A DNA stretch of 64,000 nt from Jiangella aurantiaca (GTDB lineage: Bacteria; Actinomycetota; Actinomycetes; Jiangellales; Jiangellaceae). A model generated the notes under the pieces. The model was not told where the DNA came from, made no database searches, and saw only the letters and a program-made list of their open reading frames with translations. The stretch covers positions 186,001-250,000 of the forward strand of contig NZ_SMLB01000005.1 in assembly GCF_004349105.1 (NCBI RefSeq). The letters run 5' to 3'. The translations under genes were made by a program, and so were the position numbers. Below, piece by piece: positions 28,734 through 36,889 of this stretch. Position 1 is the first letter of the stretch. Each line of letters opens with the position of its first letter.

Positions 28734-29710
28734 GGGCCGAGCATGTCCGGGGTGAGGCTCGCCTCGGTGTCGGGAATGCCTTCGTCGGCGGCCTTGCGGT
28801 CGGCCATGGCGAGCAGCCGCCGGATGCGGCCGGCCACGGCGTCCTTCGTCATCGGCGGGTCGGACAGCTGGCCCAGCTCCTCGAGGCTGGCCTGCTTGTT
28901 CTCCAGCCGGAGCAGGCCGGCCTGGCGGAGGTGGTCGGGTACGTCCTCGCCGAGGATCTCCAGCGCCCGCTCGACCCGCGCCCCCGCGGCGACGGCCGCC
29001 CGCGCGGACCGGCGCAGGTTGGCGTCGTCGAAGTTGGCCAGCCGGTTCGCCGTGGCCCGGACCTCGCGGCGCATGCGCCGTTCCTCCCAGGCCAGCACGC
29101 TGTCGTGCGCGCCCAGCCGGGTCAGCAGCGCGCCGATGGCGTCGCCGTCGCGCACCACCACGCGGTCGGTCCCCCGGACGTCGCGCGCCTTCGCCGAGAT
29201 CGCCAGCCGCCGGGCCGCCCCGACCAGCGCGAGCGCGGCCTCGGGCCCCGGGCAGGTCACCTCGAGCGCCGACGACCGGCCCGGCTCGGTGAGCGAGCCG
29301 TGCGCGAGGAACGCGCCCCGCCATGCCGCCTCGGCGTCGTGGTCGGCCCCGTTCACCACCTGCGGCGGCAGCCCGCGGACCGGCCGCCCGCTGCCGTCGA
29401 TCAGCCCCGTCTGCCGCGCCAGCCGCTCGCCGTCGCGCACCACGCGCACGACGTAACGGCTCCCCTTGCGCAGCCCACCGGCGGCGACCATCGCGAGGTC
29501 GCTGTCGTGGCCGAACACCTCCGCTATGTCACGTCGCAACCTGCGGGCCGCGACCCCCGTATCCAACTCGGCCTCGATGACGATCTTCCCACTGACGATG
29601 TGCAGGCCGCCGGCAAAGCGCAGCAGCGACGACACCTCAGCCTTACGGCAGCACGTCCTGGTCACCTCGAGGCGAGCCAGCTCGTCCTTCACGGATGCTG
29701 TCATCGCCAT
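28730..29710 (-). CDS. whiA: DNA-binding protein WhiA
   Basis: 326-residue WhiA, a developmental and division regulator in actinobacteria with a degenerate LAGLIDADG homing-endonuclease fold and a C-terminal helix-turn-helix. N-terminal [20 protein letters not shown], central [20 protein letters not shown] and the C-terminal [30 protein letters not shown] are clear. The ATG at 29710 ([11 protein letters not shown]) is the family start. Downstream of yvcK with the hairpin repeat between them. Confidence 0.96.
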
Positions 29711-29808
29711 GCCGTGATCCTGCCACACCGGACGGCCCGTCCGGTGACGGTCACGGCATGCCGGACGACGGCGGTCCGGCCCGGCGCTGGTCGCAGCCCC
29801 ACCACCGA

Positions 29809-29880
29809 GTTGATCTTGGAGTAATCGTGGAATTGATCGGACATTTCGGCCCCTAACTCGACGATTACTCCAAGATCAAC
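29809..29880. repeat. Hairpin repeat, GTTGATCTTGGA family, copy A
   Basis: A perfect 20-bp inverted repeat: left arm 29809-29828 begins GTTGATCTTGGAGTAAT, right arm 29861-29880 is its exact complement, loop 32 bp. The outer 14 bases are shared with copies B and C; the inner arm and loop differ. Located downstream of yvcK. Confidence 0.85.
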
Positions 29881-29920
29881 GCGAGACCGGGGCAACGATG
29901 CCGCTGATGCGGAGCCGGCC

Positions 29921-30937
29921 TCAACGCCAGGGGCCGATGCCGCCGCTGCCGAGCGTCTGGGCATAGGTGTGACCCAGGCGGACGGGGTCATGCTGGGCGG
30001 TGCCGTCGCCCTTCGCGACGTCGGCGACGACGAGCTCGGCGCCCATCTCGCCGGCGATGCGGCGCAGCAGCTTCTCGTCCGGGCAGGACCGCCGCTCGGC
30101 GATGACGAGGTCCAGCCGCAGGTCCGGCGCGTACGCCGCGAGCACCTCCAGGTGCATCTCCGGGGTGAAGCCGGTGGTCTCGCCACCCTCCTCCGAGAGG
30201 TTGAGCGTCACCGCCCGCCGCGCGGACGTCGTGACCAGCGCGTCGCGGATCTCGGGGACCAGCAGGTGCGGGACGACGCTGCTGAACCAGGAGCCGGGGC
30301 CGAGCACCACCCAGTCGGCGTCGGCGATGGCCTCCAGGGCCTCCGGGCAGGCCGGCGGGTTCTCCGGCACCAGGCAGACGGCGGCGATGTCGCCGTCCGT
30401 GGTGGCCACCTCGTGTTGCCCGCTGACGGTGGAGATCTCGCGCGGCGCGCCGGGTTCCGCGACCGGCCGCCCGACCAGCGCCTCGATGGTCAGCGGGACC
30501 AGCGCCATCGGCAGCACCCGGCCCTGGGCGCCGAGCAGCCGGCCGACCCAGTCCAGGCCCTCGACGTGGCCGCCGAGCAGCTCCCACAACGCGACGATGA
30601 GCAGGTTGCCGGCCGCGTGGTTGTGCAGTTCGCCGCCGCTGAGGAACCGGTGCTGCAGCACCCGCGCCCAAGTGCGGCCCCAGTCGTCGTCGCCGCAGAG
30701 GGCCGCGAGCGCCATGCGGAGGTCGCCGGGCGGCAGCACGCCCAGCTCCTCGCGCAGCCGGCCGCTGGAGCCGCCGTCGTCGGCGACGGTGACGACGGCG
30801 GTCAGCCGCCCCGCCATGCGCCGCAGCGCCGACAGCGACGCCGCGAGTCCGTGCCCGCCGCCGAGGGCCACGACCTTCGGGCCGGCGAGCCGGCCGCGGG
30901 CGACGCCGCCCGCTGTGCCCGTGAATGGTTCTGTCAT
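29921..30937 (-). CDS. yvcK: YvcK/CofD-like gluconeogenesis factor
   Basis: 338-residue protein of the YvcK (GlmR) family, needed for growth on gluconeogenic carbon sources and for peptidoglycan precursor supply in other bacteria; it binds UDP-sugars. The start VVALGGGHGLAASLSALRRM and TVADDGGSSGRLREELGVLPPGD are diagnostic, as is WVVLGPGSWFSSVVPHLLVP. The ATG overlaps the rapZ stop (ATGA), the standard rapZ-yvcK-whiA order. Confidence 0.96.
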   Translation of the reverse strand: MTEPFTGTAGGVARGRLAGPKVVALGGGHGLAASLSALRRMAGRLTAVVTVADDGGSSGRLREELGVLPPGDLRMALAALCGDDDWGRTWARVLQHRFLSGGELHNHAAGNLLIVALWELLGGHVEGLDWVGRLLGAQGRVLPMALVPLTIEALVGRPVAEPGAPREISTVSGQHEVATTDGDIAAVCLVPENPPACPEALEAIADADWVVLGPGSWFSSVVPHLLVPEIRDALVTTSARRAVTLNLSEEGGETTGFTPEMHLEVLAAYAPDLRLDLVIAERRSCPDEKLLRRIAGEMGAELVVADVAKGDGTAQHDPVRLGHTYAQTLGSGGIGPWR

Positions 30938-31821
30938 TCCCGTCCGAGATCGCGATGGACCACGAGGGTCTCGATGCCCTGTTTGCGCAGCCGCTGCGCG
31001 AGCGCCTCGCTCATCGAGACGCTGCGGTGCTTGCCGCCGGTGCAGCCGATGCCGATGGTGACGAACCGCTTGCCCTCGTGCAGGTAGCCGGGCGCCACCA
31101 TGGCGACCAGCTCGCTGTAGTGCTCGAGGAAGTCCTCGGCCCCGGTCTGCGCCAGCACGTAGTCGCTGACCTCGATGTCCTGACCGTTCTGCGGGCGCAG
31201 GTGCGGCACCCAGTGCGGGTTGGGCAGGAAGCGCATGTCGGCGACCATGTCGGCGTCCACCGGCAGACCGTACTTGAAACCGAACGAGATGACGATGGCC
31301 CGCAGCCCGGTCTCCTCGGGCGTGGAGAACGCCGACCGCACCCGCCCGGCCAGCTCGTGCGGGTTGAGCAGCGAGGTGTCGATGACGACGTCGGCGGCGA
31401 CCCGCAGCGACGCCAGCTCCTCGCGCTCGCGCTCGATGGCCTCGAGGATGCGGCCGCCGCCCTGCAGCGGGTGCGGCCGGCGCGCGGACTCGAAGCGGCG
31501 GACGAGCGCTTCGTTGCCGGCCTCGAGGAACAGCACCGTCGGGCGGTAGCCCTGCTCGGTGAGGCGGTCGAGCGCTCCGCGCAGCTCGCCGAAGAACACG
31601 CCGCCGCGGACGTCGGCGACGACGGCGACGCGGCGCAGGTCGGTGCGCTGGGTGACGGTGGTGACGAGGTCCATCAGCAGCGACGGCGGCAGGTTGTCGA
31701 CGACGAACCAGCCGATGTCGTCGAGGGCTGCCGTCGCCGCCGTCTTGCCGGCGCCGGACATTCCGGTGACCAGGAGCAGCTCGAGCTTCTCCGAGGCCTC
31801 CGGTCGGCCCTGGTGGTTCAT
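30934..31821 (-). CDS. rapZ: RNase adapter RapZ / P-loop nucleotide-binding protein
   Basis: 295-residue protein of the RapZ (YvcJ) family. Walker A VTGMSGAGKTAATAALDD is at residues about 18-35, the second conserved block ADVRGGVFFGELRGALDRL follows, and the C-terminal VTIGIGCTGGKHRSVSMSEALAQRL is the family signature. In E. coli it controls glmS sRNA decay; in Gram-positives its role is less clear. Part of the uvrC-rapZ-yvcK-whiA cluster. Confidence 0.96.
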   Translation of the reverse strand: MNHQGRPEASEKLELLLVTGMSGAGKTAATAALDDIGWFVVDNLPPSLLMDLVTTVTQRTDLRRVAVVADVRGGVFFGELRGALDRLTEQGYRPTVLFLEAGNEALVRRFESARRPHPLQGGGRILEAIEREREELASLRVAADVVIDTSLLNPHELAGRVRSAFSTPEETGLRAIVISFGFKYGLPVDADMVADMRFLPNPHWVPHLRPQNGQDIEVSDYVLAQTGAEDFLEHYSELVAMVAPGYLHEGKRFVTIGIGCTGGKHRSVSMSEALAQRLRKQGIETLVVHRDLGRE

Positions 31822-31900
31822 GGTGCGATCCCCTTGTGCGGTGCGGCGGTGGATGTTCAGTTGTCGGGCGCCTCCGGCGAGCGACCGTGGCCGGTGCTGG

Positions 31901-33904
31901 TCACGAGTCGAGTATCTCGCCGGTTGCGGTGTTCACGGCCGGCACGGCCGGGCGCTCCGCCAGCGCGTCGACCACCGCCTGCGCCGTCGCAGGACCGAAG
32001 CCGGGGACCTCCGCGATCTGCTCCATGGTTGCAGCTCGGAGCCGTTTCAGCGACCCGAACCTGGTCATCAGCGCCTTACGCCTTGCGGGCCCCAGACCGG
32101 GCACGCCGTCGAGCAGGCTGTCGACCATGGAGGTGGAGCGGCGCTGCCGGTGGAACGTGATGGCGAACCGGTGCGCTTCGTCCCTTACCCGCTGCAGCAG
32201 ATACAAGCCCTCGCTGGTGCGCGGCATGATGATCGGGTGGTCGGAGTCGGGCGGCCACACCTCCTCCAGGCGCTTGGCCAGCCCGACGACGGGGATGTCG
32301 CTGACGCCCGCCTCGTCCATGGCCTGCCGGGCCGCGTTGACCTGCGGCTGGCCGCCGTCGACGACGACCAGCCCGGGCGCGTAGGCGAACTTGCGCGGCC
32401 GGCCGGTCTCGGGGTCGATGCCCGGCCGCAGCTCCGGCCCGGCGGGGGCGGCCGCGCTGCCGCCGTCGGGAGCGGGCTCGTCCTGGTCGGCCTGGGGCGA
32501 CTCGCGCAGCCGGCGGAACCGGCGGGTCAGCACCTCGCGGATGGCGGCGACGTCGTCGGTGCCGCCCTGCTCGCCGCGGACGGTGAACTTGCGGTACTCG
32601 CTCTTGCGCGGCAGGCCGTCCTCGAACACCACCATGGAGCCGACGACTTCGGTGCCGGCCAGGTTGGAGATGTCGTAGCACTCGATGCGCAGCGGCGGCT
32701 CGTCCAGCTCGAGGGTGTCCTGGATCTCCTCCAGCGCCCGGCTGCGGGTGGTGAGGTCGCTGGCCCGCTTCGTCTTGTGGAGGTTGAGCGCCTGCTTGGC
32801 GTTGGCGGCGACCGTCTGCAGCAGCGCCCGCTTGTCGCCTCGCTGCGGCACCCGGATCTCGACGCGGCCGCCGCGCAGCTCGGTGAGCAGCTCCGTGAGG
32901 GCGGCGGCCTCCTCGGGGTCGTCGGGCAGCGCTGGAACGAGGATCTCGCGCGGCACCGACTCGCCGCCCAGCTCGCCGTAGAGCTGCAGCAGGAACCGCT
33001 CGACCAGCTCGCCGGCCGGCGCGTCGTCGGCCTTGTCGGCGACCCAGCCGCGCTGCCCGCGGATGCGGCCGCCGCGCACGTAGAAGACCTGGACGGCGAC
33101 CTCGAGGGGGTCGTCGGCGAGCGCGACGACGTCGGCGTCGGTGCCGTCGCCGAGCACGACGGCGTTGGCCTCCATGGCGCGGTCGAGCGCGGCGATGTCG
33201 TCGCGCAGCCGGGCGGCCCGCTCGAAGTCGAGCTCCGCCGCGGCGGCCTTCATCTCCTTCTCCAGCCGCCGGATGTAGCCCGTCGTCTTGCCCTCGAGGA
33301 ACGAGACGAGGTCGTCGGCGATCTCGCGGTGCTCGTCGGCGTCGACCCGGCCGACGCACGGCGCGGAGCACTTGCCGATGTAGCCGAGCAGGCACGGCCG
33401 GCCGATCTGCCGGGACCGGTTGAACACGCCCTTGGAGCAGCTGCGCACCGGGAAAACGCGCAGCAGCTGGTCGAGCGACTCGCGGATGGCCCACGCGTGG
33501 GCGTAGGGGCCGAAGTAGCGGACGCCGCGCTTCTTCGCGCCGCGCATGACCATGGCCCGCGGGTACTCCTCGTTCAGCGTGACCGCGAGGTACGGGTACG
33601 ACTTGTCGTCGCGGTAACGGACGTTGAACCGCGGGTCGAACTCCTTGATCCAGGAGTACTCCAGCTGCAGCGCCTCGACCTCGTTGCGCACCACCGTCCA
33701 CTCGACCTTGGCCGCGGTGGTGACCATGGCGAACGTGCGCGGGTGCAGCGCGGAGAGGTCCTGGAAGTACGACGACAACCGCGCGCGCAGGCTCTTGGCC
33801 TTGCCGACGTAGATGACCCGGCCGTGGGCGTCGCTGAAGCGGTAGACCCCGGGCTCCACCGGGATCGACCCCGGGGCCGGTCGGTATGTCGTCGGATCGG
33901 CCAC
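31901..33904 (-). CDS. uvrC: Excinuclease ABC subunit C
   Basis: 667-residue UvrC, the nuclease making both incisions in nucleotide excision repair. GIY-YIG domain at residues about 15-95 ([39 protein letters not shown]), Cys-containing [24 protein letters not shown], a UvrB-interacting UVR motif near 215, RNase H-like domain ([35 protein letters not shown]) and C-terminal helix-hairpin-helix pairs. A short acidic/Pro insertion ([17 protein letters not shown]) interrupts the RNase H part. The GTG start at 33904 is supported by a promoter whose -10 lies seven bases upstream, predicting leaderless mRNA. Confidence 0.95.
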
Positions 33905-33911
33905 GACTGAC

Positions 33912-33934
33912 AGCCTATGACCTCGCACCGACGA
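33912..33934 (-). promoter_or_regulatory. PafBC/RecA-NDp-type promoter of uvrC
   Basis: Minus strand TCGTCGGTG (33934-33926), eight bases, then TAGGCT (33917-33912). This matches TTGTCRGTG-N8-TAnnnT, the LexA-independent DNA-damage promoter described in mycobacteria, at 8 of 9 plus 3 of 3 fixed positions. The -10 ends seven bases before the GTG. Confidence 0.65.
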
Positions 33935-34114
33935 AGTCGGCATGGCGGCCTTCGCCGTGGGCGTGACCTTCGGTCGACCGGCAATGTGCGGCGATGTGCC
34001 GACAATTCTCACACCTCCCTCGGCCGATCAGCGGAACAAATCGGAATCGCAATGATCCGTTCGCCGGCCGGAACTATGTTCGGGGCACCTTCGAGACAGG
34101 GCGGGAGGCATGGA

Positions 34115-34963
34115 ATGCCCACATCTGTGCGAACAGAGAATTTCGTCGACCAACTCGGCGACTCGTTCAGCCGACTAGGATCCGACATCGGCGACTTCGT
34201 GCCGCGCCTGGTGGTCGCGCTACTACTACTGCTGGTCGGGCACTGGGTCGCGAAGCTGATCCGGCGACTGCTGACGGCCGGGTTGAACAAGATCGGCGCG
34301 GGCCGGCTGACCGAGGCCGCCGGCCTCGAGAACACGCTGCGCCAGGCGGGTACCAGCGGAGTGGCGCTGATCGGCCAGGTCGCCTATTTCCTCATCTTCA
34401 TCATCTTCGTGCAGATCGCCGCGGAAGTGCTGGAGATCGACGAACTCACGTCGATGCTGAATCTGCTCATCGCGTATCTGCCGCTGGTGGCCGTCGCACT
34501 TCTGGTGCTGTTCGTGGCCGCTGCGATCGCGAATTGGGCGGCGAATGTCGTCCGGCCGTTCGCGGAGAGCCGGAACATGAGCTGGGTCAGCAGCGCCGTG
34601 CGTATCGGCGTGCTGATCATCGGAATCCTGGCCGCGTTCGACACACTGAACTTCGCACCGTCGGTGACGTCGAAGATCGAGAACACGCTGCTGCAGTACC
34701 TGCCGCTGGCGATCCTGGCCGCGGCGACGATCGCGTTCGGCGTGGGCGGCATCAACACCGCCCGCGAGTGGTGGAAGAAGCTGTCGCCGTCGACCTTCGG
34801 CTCCCCCATGGGCCGCACCGCAACGGCGTCCGCGCACGGCTCCCCGGCAGCCGGCGCGCCGGCATCCGGCGCGCCGGGTTCGGCCGCTCCCGCCGACCCG
34901 CCCGGCCCGTCGCTGTTCGGCGACGAGGAGCCACCGCCCACGGAGCCGCGCCCCGGCGCCTGA
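34115..34963 (+). CDS. Small-conductance channel-like membrane protein (conserved TM helix)
   Basis: 282-residue membrane protein with about five hydrophobic helices: PRLVVALLLLLVGHWVAKLI, VAYFLIFIIFVQIAAEVLEI, LIAYLPLVAVALLVLFVAAA and two later ones. The repeated 'conserved TM helix' motif (helix followed by LIRRLLTAGLNKIG) resembles proteins related to mechanosensitive MscS channels, but no MscS beta domain is present. The C-terminal 70 residues are an Ala/Pro-rich tail. The ATG at 34115 has GGGAGG seven bases upstream. A strong terminator hairpin follows. Confidence 0.8.
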   Translation: MPTSVRTENFVDQLGDSFSRLGSDIGDFVPRLVVALLLLLVGHWVAKLIRRLLTAGLNKIGAGRLTEAAGLENTLRQAGTSGVALIGQVAYFLIFIIFVQIAAEVLEIDELTSMLNLLIAYLPLVAVALLVLFVAAAIANWAANVVRPFAESRNMSWVSSAVRIGVLIIGILAAFDTLNFAPSVTSKIENTLLQYLPLAILAAATIAFGVGGINTAREWWKKLSPSTFGSPMGRTATASAHGSPAAGAPASGAPGSAAPADPPGPSLFGDEEPPPTEPRPGA

Positions 34964-34983
34964 CGCCGTGCGACTCCCCTGAC

Positions 34984-35031
34984 GCCGCACCCGGCCGCCG
35001 GTTCACCCCGTTCGCACCGGCCGGGTGCGGC
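34984..35031 (+). terminator. Hairpin terminator after the membrane protein
   Basis: GCCGCACCCGGCCG (34984-34997) and its exact complement (35018-35031) form a perfect 14-bp stem with a 20-base loop, 21 bp after the stop codon. No U-tract. Confidence 0.65.
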
Positions 35032-35062
35032 CCCGTCAGCCCCCTGCAGATCAGCATCGAGC

Positions 35063-35133
35063 GTTGATCTTGGAGTTGTTCGGCTCAAGCGTCCGATTTG
35101 CCCGATAGATGGCCGAACAATTCCAAGATCAAC
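35063..35133. repeat. Hairpin repeat, GTTGATCTTGGA family, copy B
   Basis: 22-bp arms starting GTTGATCTTGGAGTTGTTCG (35063-35084) and their complement (35112-35133) with one G-T position, loop 27 bases. Copy C at 36209 is the same 71-base element in the same orientation with two differences. Lies downstream of the DUF559 gene. Confidence 0.9.
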
Positions 35134-35180
35134 CGGTGCGTGGTGCAGGCGCCTGATCACCGAGCCACGTCGAGCCGAGG

Positions 35181-36098
35181 TCAGCCAAGTCGGCGGCGTT
35201 GGCGGTCGAGCGCGCGTCGAATGCGAGCGCACAGCTGTGCCGGGTGAGCGATGTCGGCGGCGGTGACGCGGACAACCTCCCAGCCGTGATCGCGGAGCAC
35301 CTCATCTCGGCCGACGTCCGCACGCCAGCGTTCGGCGTTCGTCCGATGGACGTCGCCCTCGTACTGGATGGCGAGCCTGACGTCCGCATAAGCGAGGTCC
35401 GGGCGGCCGATCCAGCCGCCGCGCTCGTCCGATAGGTCTGGGTTGACCGCGGGCTCGGGCAGATTCCCAGCCACGAGCACCAAGCGCAACCGGGTCTCCT
35501 GCGGCGAGTCCACCCGGTCCCGGACCAGCCTCGCCAGCGACCGTGCCCGGACGATCCCGCGCCGCCGGCGCGCGACGTCCGCGGACTCCACGAGGCGGTC
35601 GCAGGTGGTCAGCCCGCGCCGCACCATCGCGTCGCCCACAACGACGAGTTCGACGTCGCCGAGCGTCAGCGACAGGTCCAGCCACGTGCGCTCCGGCGTC
35701 GTGACCCGCAGACCCCGATGCACGGTCACATCGTCCAGACCGAGACCTTCGTGAGGTTCGAGCCCGGGCCGCCGCCGCGGCACCGTTCCCGGCGGGACGA
35801 TGACCTGCACGTCGGCCGGCGGCGCGACCGGTAGCCCGAACCAGGCCGCCGCCGTCGCACCGTACAACGCGGCGTCAGCGGGCAACGCCAGCAGCCACGC
35901 CCGTACCCGCCGGTCGCCGTCCACATCGAGTTCGCGCTCGGCATAGACACCCCGATGCAGGCGGACGTACCCGGGCCCGCACAGACGGTCCTTGGTGACA
36001 CCGGCGGCTCGTGCGGCGCCGTACGTGAACCCGGCGCCGGCCAGCCGCTCGGGAACCGGCTGCGTCCGGCGGCCGGGGCCGTATCGCCTGTACCGCAC
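35181..36098 (-). CDS. AbiEi-like and DUF559 nuclease-fold protein
   Basis: 305 residues from the GTG at 36098 (325 if a TTG at 36158 is used; neither has a good ribosome site). The N-terminal part resembles the AbiEi antitoxin-type winged helix (FTYGAARAAGVTKDRLCGPG, VRLHRGVYAERELD). The C-terminal part is a DUF559/Vsr-like restriction-endonuclease fold: GRPDLAYADVRLAIQYEGD with candidate catalytic Asp and Glu, then a helix and VLRDHGWEVVRVTAADI. Such proteins are numerous in actinobacteria; biological role unproven. No toxin partner is beside it. It is bounded on both sides by direct copies of a hairpin repeat. Confidence 0.8.
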   Translation of the reverse strand: MRYRRYGPGRRTQPVPERLAGAGFTYGAARAAGVTKDRLCGPGYVRLHRGVYAERELDVDGDRRVRAWLLALPADAALYGATAAAWFGLPVAPPADVQVIVPPGTVPRRRPGLEPHEGLGLDDVTVHRGLRVTTPERTWLDLSLTLGDVELVVVGDAMVRRGLTTCDRLVESADVARRRRGIVRARSLARLVRDRVDSPQETRLRLVLVAGNLPEPAVNPDLSDERGGWIGRPDLAYADVRLAIQYEGDVHRTNAERWRADVGRDEVLRDHGWEVVRVTAADIAHPAQLCARIRRALDRQRRRLG

Positions 36099-36208
36099 GC
36101 GCCCACGATCGTCCTGTCCTGCCGTCGCCGCAGCGGACGAACGCCGAAATGTGGACAACTCCCGCGGTGGCCATCACGTGTGGATAGACCCACCGCCGTT
36201 CTGACCCT

Positions 36209-36279
36209 GTTGATCTTGGAGTTGTTCGGCTCAGGCGTCCGATTTGCCCGATAGATGGCCGAACAACTCCAAGATCAAC
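36209..36279. repeat. Hairpin repeat, GTTGATCTTGGA family, copy C
   Basis: Perfect 22-bp inverted repeat (36209-36230 and 36258-36279), 27-base loop TCAGGCGTCCGATTTGCCCG and seven more bases. Near-identical to copy B in the same orientation; similarity extends beyond the right arm into CCGGTG. Located upstream of the DUF559 gene. Confidence 0.9.
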
Positions 36280-36319
36280 CGGTGGGTGGGCGAGCTGGGG
36301 CCGGCTGCCGGCGGGGCGG

Positions 36320-36889
36320 TCAGCCGGCGAGGATCTGGTCGCCCTCGACGACGATCGCGACCGGCGGCAGCGGCTGCTCGGCCGGGCCGTTCACGACCGA
36401 GCCGTCGGTGACGCTGAACCGGCTGCCGTGGCAGTCGCAGGTGATCAGGCCCTCGGCGACCGTCGTGACCGCGCACCCCTGGTGCGTGCACGTGCTGCTG
36501 TAGGCGACGAACGTGCCTGCGGCCGGCTGCGCCACCACGACGCCGGGGCCGTGCAGGACGATCCCGCCGCCCACCGGCACCTCGGCGGTGGTGGTGAGCG
36601 CCTCACCGCCCGGCTCCCCCGCCGGCGTCGACGGTTCACCGCTCGGCGAGGCCGGCTCGCTCGGGGTCGTGGCGTCGGCGCCGGCGTCGGTGCTCTCGGT
36701 GTCGGGTTCGGCGCTCGCCGACGGCGCGCCGCCCGTGCTCGGCTCGTCGTCGCCGCACGCCGCCAGCAGGCCCGCGACGCCGACGGCGCCCATGCCCATC
36801 AGCGCGGTTCGCCGGCCGATGCACCGGCCGCAGGCCACGTGCCCATCATCGCTCTCCTGCGTCAGGGTTGCCGCGTGGTGATGATCCAT
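36320..36889 (-). CDS. Tat-exported Rieske [2Fe-2S] lipoprotein
   Basis: 189-residue protein. The N-terminal region carries a twin arginine (GRRTALMG) and lipobox LLAAC with Cys45 as the lipid site, so export as a folded lipoprotein is predicted. An acidic Ser/Thr/Pro linker spans about 46-98. The Rieske domain has CTHQGC (Cys134, His136, Cys139) and CDCHG (Cys151, Cys153, His154): cluster ligands Cys134/His136/Cys151/His154 and a likely disulfide 139-153. The partner is unknown; QcrA-like electron transfer at the membrane surface is plausible. An odd CGRC pair precedes the twin arginine. The ATG at 36889 follows GAGAGG. Confidence 0.9.
   Translation of the reverse strand: MDHHHAATLTQESDDGHVACGRCIGRRTALMGMGAVGVAGLLAACGDDEPSTGGAPSASAEPDTESTDAGADATTPSEPASPSGEPSTPAGEPGGEALTTTAEVPVGGGIVLHGPGVVVAQPAAGTFVAYSSTCTHQGCAVTTVAEGLITCDCHGSRFSVTDGSVVNGPAEQPLPPVAIVVEGDQILAG

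Follow-up and report, generated by a model that had tools for sequence, protein, structure and literature searches.

Dispersed hairpin repeats of bacterial genomes include REP/REPIN elements, which are tied to the REP-associated tyrosine transposases (RAYT, TnpA-REP), enzymes of the Y1 HUH type (PF01797). This partnership was recognised from a comparative pattern of enzyme genes flanked by the repeats, coevolution and dispersed copies (PMC2817692), and the palindromes carry a GTAG or CGTC tag at one end (PMC3733652). Other relevant protein families have been described in different settings. The AbiEi antitoxins of AbiE type IV toxin-antitoxin systems, the partners of an AbiEii nucleotidyltransferase toxin, autoregulate by binding inverted repeats (PMC7319586); the EDxHD homing endonuclease I-Bth0305I appears to dimerise on a target of nearly 60 bp (PMC3943268); and MTES_1575 appears as a Vsr-type domain of a large multi-domain protein (PMC3710099). 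Searches of the PMC library, which covers few subscription journals and no bioRxiv preprints as such, and which were judged mostly on titles and the beginnings of abstracts, showed no link between DUF559, MTES_1575, Vsr or AbiEi proteins and hairpin or palindromic repeats; the work on tagged palindromic repeats (PMC3733652) contains no mention of Actinobacteria, Jiangella, Nocardioides or Kribbella. Here we describe a locus of Jiangella aurantiaca in which a gene for a predicted nuclease lies between two copies of a hairpin that is also dispersed around the genome.

The window, which is the whole 64,000-nt stretch that was analysed (NZ_SMLB01000005.1, positions 186,001 to 250,000; assembly GCF_004349105.1), lies in a 6.62-Mb genome. 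The gene sits between a mechanosensitive-channel gene with uvrC on the left and a Rieske gene with uvrA on the right (Table 1). Hairpins B and C, which frame it, are each 71 nt long and lie in the same orientation, and their similarity runs on to 81 nt at 96% identity; the arms of B contain one mismatch. An earlier note had described two near-identical 71-base hairpins, in the same orientation and with two differences, on either side of a single AbiEi/DUF559 gene, with similarity extending past the right arm, and this observation is confirmed. Folded as RNA, B gives -40.3 kcal/mol (z = -7.1), and none of 200 shuffled sequences was as stable. The arm occurs four times in the window at up to 3 mismatches, against 0 in 100 shuffles, and copy A represents a related sub-type. 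No Rfam family matched at E<=0.1 in positions 29500-36500.

Table 1. Coordinates of the hairpins and the nuclease gene within the window.
Feature	Position	Strand	Description
Copy A	29809-29880		Solo hairpin of the same super-family (GTTGATCTTGGAGTAATCG... sub-type), no nuclease gene beside it
Hairpin B	35063-35133		Downstream of the gene; 22-nt arms around a 27-nt middle; CTTGG sub-type
Extension at B	35134-35143		Similarity past the right arm of B (matches 36280-36289 beside C)
Nuclease gene	35181-36158	-	325 aa; predicted AbiEi-antitoxin-like module (residues about 30-213) fused to Vsr/EDxHD-type nuclease domain (residues about 216-322)
Hairpin C	36209-36279		51 nt upstream of the first listed start codon; perfect 22-nt arms; two differences from B
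Extension at C	36280-36289		Similarity past the right arm of C

The gene product is predicted to join an AbiEi-like DNA-binding module to a Vsr/EDxHD-type nuclease. In Pfam it matches only MTES_1575 (E 1.5e-6) and AbiEi_1 (E 8.8e-4), both below the gathering score, and PADLOC gives an AbiEi match (E 1.3e-14). An AlphaFold2 model built from 75 aligned relatives is confident (pLDDT 91.2, pTM 0.85). In this model, residues 30-213 match the AbiEi antitoxin of Streptococcus agalactiae (6Y8Q; Z 11.9, rmsd 5.3, 177 aligned residues; Foldseek E 8.4e-6 for 6Y8Q_A), residues 218-322 match I-Bth0305I (3R3P; Z 12.3, rmsd 2.8, 97 aligned residues), and residues 216-323 match Vsr (1CW0; Z 10.3). The sequence profile also finds 3HRL and 3R3P (E 3.3e-4 and 3.6e-3, respectively). 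E221, R225, Y266, G268, H271 and D281 are invariant in the 75 proteins and D254 is conserved in 90% or more, as expected of a working EDxHD site; however, the assignment of E221, D254, H271 and D281 to the motif is ours and was made without an active-site superposition, which leaves undecided whether these are the catalytic residues. Of the 75 aligned relatives, 73 match MTES_1575 and 60 match DUF559.

A strict pattern for the hairpin super-family (TTGATC[AT]TGGA ... TCCA[AT]GATCAA) occurs at 134 places in the own genome, against 0 for the reversed control. Across 60 genomes, this pattern is present in all 12 Jiangella genomes (2 to 134 copies; here designated G000 to G011, with G000 holding the window) and in 1 of the 48 others (2 copies), with 0 control matches. 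The own genome has five homologues of the gene, including that of the window. Of the eight flanks of the four closest, seven carry a hairpin, whereas by our estimate from the average density about 0.04 would be expected in about 2 kb of flank. The fifth, diverged homologue (L035) has the same sequence on both sides in inverted orientation, with an imperfect hairpin that was read by eye, since the hairpin finder does not detect bulged hairpins of this kind. No match to PF01797 was found in any of the 12 Jiangella genomes, while the control was positive in 5 of 14 known genomes.

The association between nuclease and hairpin sub-type was examined at 20 non-duplicate Jiangella loci of two clades of the protein; one further locus in G001 and two fragments in G002 were not included. 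All nine genes of clade i (65-79% identical to the window protein) have CTTGG hairpins of 71-72 nt, and all 11 genes of clade ii (about 41-46% identical; the G004 gene is listed in two pieces of 39-49%) have CATGG hairpins of about 60 nt. All 20 loci have at least one cognate hairpin, and 14 have a strict hairpin on both sides. Among the other six loci, L102 and L103 have little sequence downstream before a contig end, L107 and L111 have little upstream, L108 has a downstream hairpin by a looser finder, and L034 has none downstream. The arms of a gene's own pair are 0.97 identical, against 0.82 for pairs drawn from different genes of the same clade. The middles of own pairs are less uniform (0.57 to 0.97, mean 0.81, against 0.61 for cross pairs but 0.75 for pairs of solo copies), so that homogenisation is uneven. 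In G000 the two hairpins of the window resemble each other (0.972) more than they resemble their counterparts in G007 (0.958 upstream, 0.901 downstream), which hints at homogenisation.

The association extends beyond the genus. Of 367 relatives found in GTDB genomes, the best 80 were kept, and 72 of these had 400 nt on both sides. Among the 72 actinobacterial loci, 55 have upstream-downstream similarity above the 95% point of 140 within-locus control pairs, and 54 exceed all control values; outside Jiangella, 47 of 64 loci exceed the 95% point. The 17 loci that fail this two-sided test include Curtobacterium and Catenuloplanes loci that do have one strong upstream hairpin. Of 47 loci that could be scored for orientation, 28 have direct and 19 have inverted pairs. 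The hairpin sequences differ between lineages, and three lineage patterns were each counted on the same 12 genomes: the Curtobacterium pattern gave 15, 15 and 19 copies, the Kribbella pattern 12, 8 and 3, and the Oerskovia/Cellulosimicrobium pattern 14, 17 and 8, each in the three genomes of its own lineage and none in the other nine. The reversed control was 0 except for one place in one Kribbella genome. These are dispersed families of their own.

A third nuclease clade is associated with a third hairpin family in Jiangella. At the site of another homologue (L032), just past the 3' end of a conserved gene, G000, G002, G009 and G011 carry a clade-i gene with CTTGG hairpins, whereas G001, G005, G008 and G010 carry a diverged clade-iii nuclease (profile E 1.9e-14 to 2.8e-27) followed by TCACCTGATC hairpins; in the three read closely, the stop codon runs into the hairpin sequence. 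G003 has a truncated piece, and no match was found in the stretches retrieved from G004, G006 and G007. TCACCTGATC hairpins number 9, 29, 12 and 9 in the four genomes with the gene, 23 in G003, 52 in G009, 1 in G000 and 0 in the other five. We had predicted beforehand that pairs of this hairpin 0.8-1.8 kb apart should enclose a nuclease gene. No such pair was seen among the places inspected (only one of the 52 in G009 was among them); the strict hairpins lie downstream only, and the gene was found instead directly upstream of the hairpins in 3 of 40 regions and, among seven further regions, in G010, with the truncated piece in G003. All are the same orthologous site, where this hairpin was first seen, so that the test is only partly independent. 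Whether abundance of the repeat follows presence of the cognate gene is left undecided by these counts, for which only this site was examined, also in G009, and by G008, which has 102 hairpins of the CTTGG/CATGG super-family but no homologue of the window protein at E<=1e-15 (37 of 49 first-look candidates were scored), although it does have a clade-iii gene.

Gene and hairpins are present or absent together between species. At the window's site, the gene with both hairpins occurs in G000 and G007 only, that is, in 2 of the 11 genomes whose junction could be read; G006 could not be joined across the site. Eight genomes (G001, G002, G003, G004, G005, G008, G009 and G010) have the channel-Rieske junction with neither the gene nor a hairpin of this super-family, although G001 and G010 hold another palindromic sequence there, and G011 has no gene but one CATGG hairpin. 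The 20 Jiangella gene loci fall into 11 groups by flank matching, although contig ends may hide matches. At the place of copy A, four of eight genomes have hairpins of this super-family, of different sub-types, and four have none. Although empty sites exist, the intergenic DNA has diverged too far for exact ends or a target-site duplication to be read, so that the comparison with a classical transposon or MITE is not settled by these data. Movement is not rapid between sister species: every hairpin site that could be matched in the retrieved stretches of Oerskovia and Curtobacterium was occupied in both species, with one degenerate Oerskovia counterpart and one Oerskovia hairpin without a counterpart in the sequence retrieved.

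The two arms of a hairpin change together. In 48 distinct Curtobacterium copies, stem columns 10-19 are 92% Watson-Crick, against a mean of 77% and a maximum of 82% when partner arms are shuffled, while the loop varies freely. In 11 orthologous hairpins of sister species, five stem pairs changed on both sides and stayed paired, two changed on one side and stayed paired, and eight changed on one side with a mismatch in one of the two species; by our estimate, about 0.15 compensated pairs would be expected if the sides changed independently. CTTGG hairpins pair better in G000, which has clade-i genes, than in G008, where none was found (0.87 against 0.75; 38 and 25 copies; p 4e-4), but CATGG hairpins do not differ (0.85 against 0.90; 8 and 11 copies); this comparison used 46 of 134 and 36 of 102 copies, respectively. 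A C-rich left flank and G-rich right flank is very strong in Jiangella CTTGG/CATGG copies (38 of 38 positive, mean 0.20 against a control mean of 0.003, p 1e-16), weaker in TCACCTGATC copies (32 of 42), unclear in a small Kribbella set (5 of 7) and absent in solo copies of Curtobacterium (7 of 20) and Oerskovia (10 of 20), and is not treated as a general rule. Insertion into the loop of a pre-existing terminator was considered and rejected, since matched flanks fold no better than mismatched flanks of other copies (p 0.37), and position-by-position pairing of flanks exceeds the 95% point of shuffles only slightly, at distances 2, 10 and 23 of 24.

We infer that the gene encodes a nuclease dedicated to its own hairpin family. 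The link itself, which we regard as close to certain, rests on direct comparison: the nuclease gene is flanked by, or directly abuts, hairpins of a lineage-specific family, the same hairpins are dispersed as solo copies, gene and hairpins are present or absent at orthologous places between species, the arms of a hairpin change together, and the protein is predicted to combine the two modules, with conserved acidic and histidine residues. That the nuclease spreads or maintains the hairpins goes beyond these comparisons and is, in our view, somewhat more likely than not; no cleavage, binding or movement was observed. In this view, the AbiEi-like module, probably as a dimer on the near-palindrome, would recognise the conserved arms, and the nuclease would nick or cut at or next to the hairpin, most likely when it is single-stranded or extruded; host repair or recombination would then copy a hairpin, or rarely the hairpin-gene-hairpin unit, into a new intergenic place, or homogenise copies. 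The nearly 60-bp target on which I-Bth0305I appears to dimerise is close to the 60-72 nt of these hairpins. Solo hairpins would be the non-autonomous copies, left to decay where the cognate gene is lost. Host steps must be assumed, because nucleases of this fold do not join DNA strands as HUH transposases do, as far as is known.

The earlier note had read the segment as a cassette between direct repeats and had proposed that the protein, by its Vsr-type fold, could act on or be mobilised through such hairpins, as REP-associated transposases do; this interpretation is supported. It had named as grounds for rejection that the repeats show no enrichment near DUF559 genes and that the gene is fixed at this place in all relatives, and neither condition holds: the genome-wide repeat is tied to this gene family, and the gene is not fixed. 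The Vsr-type fold is supported by structure prediction, and the likeness to REP/RAYT holds for flanking hairpins, cognate families and dispersed solo copies. Two parts need qualification. The cassette between direct repeats describes only this instance, since inverted pairs are common, and the single repeat that the note proposed to look for at sites without the gene was not found as a cognate copy at any of the nine empty sites. That the protein acts on the hairpin is still an inference.

The strongest alternative, though unlikely, is that the AbiEi-like module binds the inverted repeats to control its own gene, with the dispersed copies serving as regulatory or terminator sites (a regulon) and the nuclease domain having another role, for example in defence. 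AbiEi autoregulation is consistent with this, as is the position of 38 copies in the own genome (B and C among them), of which 23 lie between tandem genes, 8 between convergent and 4 between divergent genes, 2 inside an ORF call and 1 is unclear; by crude ORF calls, 28 of the 31 tandem or convergent copies lie within -5 to 109 bp of a gene 3' end. This reading does not explain a second hairpin downstream of the gene, lineage-specific families with their own dispersed copies, or the joint presence and absence of gene and hairpins, and few of the copies inspected are followed by a run of T (the longest has four). It is similarly unlikely that the gene is a homing-type selfish gene that cuts solo hairpins, or sites like them, and invades by homologous repair to end between two hairpin copies, the solo hairpins spreading by other means. 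The match to I-Bth0305I, its target length and the 11 groups of gene loci favour this view, whereas the absence of a cognate (CTTGG) hairpin from nine of nine empty sites, the lack of any match in 50,697 phage records and the presence of only two matches, of 30-33% identity, in 72,556 plasmid records speak against it. On the same counts, carriage by phages or plasmids was considered and rejected.

Two further readings appear very unlikely. The hairpins might be moved by a RAYT or insertion-sequence transposase elsewhere in the genome, with the nuclease gene a passenger caught between two copies; the architecture resembles REP/RAYT loci (PMC2817692), and transposases other than Y1 were not searched for, but PF01797 was not found in the genus, and a passenger would not be expected to be of the same protein family in unrelated lineages with unrelated hairpins. 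Alternatively, the nuclease might attack DNA, with the hairpins acting as decoy or marker sites that restrain it or protect the host, so that genomes keep many copies. Absence from the phage records and near-absence from the plasmid records, maintenance of stem pairing and the relation of AbiEi to abortive-infection systems are consistent with such a role; however, G004 and G010 hold a gene of the family with only 4 and 2 strict copies of the hairpin pattern, so many copies are not required.

The broader possibility, which we consider a little more likely than not, is that these proteins represent an unreported class of hairpin-dedicated nuclease, widespread in Actinobacteria, in which an AbiEi-type antitoxin module was joined to an EDxHD/Vsr nuclease and turned into the enzyme that spreads and homogenises its own family of dispersed hairpins, an independent solution to what RAYT transposases do for REP elements, with hydrolytic instead of HUH chemistry. 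We regard this as new in kind, because the enzyme, and presumably its chemistry, belong to no described repeat-moving family that we could find. Proteins of this make-up match only families called DUF559, MTES_1575 or AbiEi, without a stated role in repeats. If the reading holds, they become the predicted partner of hairpin repeat families in many actinobacterial genomes, and dispersed bacterial hairpins need not depend on HUH transposases. It would also make the origin and upkeep of short dispersed repeats testable in a new setting, and offer nucleases with long palindromic recognition sequences whose cognate pairs are already laid out side by side in genomes.

In comparison with AbiE type IV toxin-antitoxin systems, the protein shares the predicted AbiEi antitoxin fold, but a nuclease domain is fused on, hairpins lie on both sides, and no toxin gene is adjacent in the window, where the neighbouring channel and Rieske genes gave no PADLOC match (other loci were not examined for this). 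With the Vsr very-short-patch repair endonuclease and the DUF559/MTES_1575 families it shares the predicted fold of the nuclease domain, but it is fused to an AbiEi-like module and tied to hairpin repeats, and no repair setting was seen or tested. With the EDxHD homing endonuclease I-Bth0305I it shares the catalytic-domain fold, on a predicted model; it differs in being a free-standing chromosomal gene between hairpins, with an AbiEi-like DNA-binding module and many dispersed cognate repeats, and in its absence from the phage records searched. Introns were not sought beyond Rfam and homing was not assayed, so these observations do not decide whether the gene resides in an intron, intein or phage genome and homes into alleles lacking it. 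With REP/REPIN elements and their RAYTs, the locus shares an enzyme gene flanked by cognate hairpins, families that differ between lineages, and dispersed solo copies (PMC2817692), and in our view it works like a RAYT/REP system but is not one. The enzyme is not Y1/HUH but is predicted to be an AbiEi-like module plus a Vsr/EDxHD nuclease; the Jiangella hairpins of clades i and ii are longer (about 60-72 nt); B and C start GTTG and end CAAC, with other neighbours, and carry no GTAG or CGTC at either end; and flanking pairs are direct or inverted, whereas RAYT genes are always flanked by inverted REPs (PMC2817692).

A palindrome of about 60 nt immediately after the mechanosensitive-channel gene is almost unchanged in 10 of 12 Jiangella genomes, while the DNA around it has diverged, and is probably a conserved terminator or regulatory site. 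Where the nuclease cassette is missing from this region, two of the Jiangella genomes (G010 and G001; loci L084 and L088, respectively) share another palindromic sequence (gcggcatgcttcaccgccgcgtagcggagccggcg...) in the same intergenic place, which is perhaps yet another repeat family. Orthologous intergenic regions, both at the place of the solo hairpin termed copy A and at the site of the nuclease homologue L032 (locus L203), hold hairpins of different sub-types or families in different Jiangella species; thus, some places seem to be hot spots.

Features with coordinates
Feature	Sequence	Position
Palindrome after the mechanosensitive-channel gene	window	34980-35039
Copy A, solo hairpin	window	29809-29880
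Diverged AbiEi-nuclease homologue bracketed by an inverted repeat	L035	about 1230-2440

Each of 38 Jiangella CTTGG/CATGG solo copies (loci L003-L030 and L036-L050) sits at a switch from C-rich to G-rich sequence, unlike control sites past gene ends; Curtobacterium and Oerskovia hairpins do not show this. Among the solo hairpins of the J. aurantiaca genome, some copies (L007, L008, L009, L011, and L015-L018) share a left flank (ccaaccaccgacag...cccc) or a right flank of about 100 nt, mixed and matched, as if the hairpin had carried one neighbor along. A stretch of about 1.45 kb (L325) next to an Oerskovia hairpin (that of G064:C7) is present in one Oerskovia genome (G064) but not in another (G063), and gave no match to the nuclease profile.

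The diverged AbiEi-nuclease homologue in L035 (32% identical) is bracketed by an inverted repeat of about 65 nt with an imperfect internal hairpin of another sequence. In five nuclease loci (L106, L108, L110, L252, and L259), the downstream hairpin overlaps or directly follows the stop codon of the nuclease gene. TCACCTGATC hairpins of 34 and 44 nt (L233-L272) often come in pairs or triplets about 30 nt apart, like BIME arrays of REP elements.
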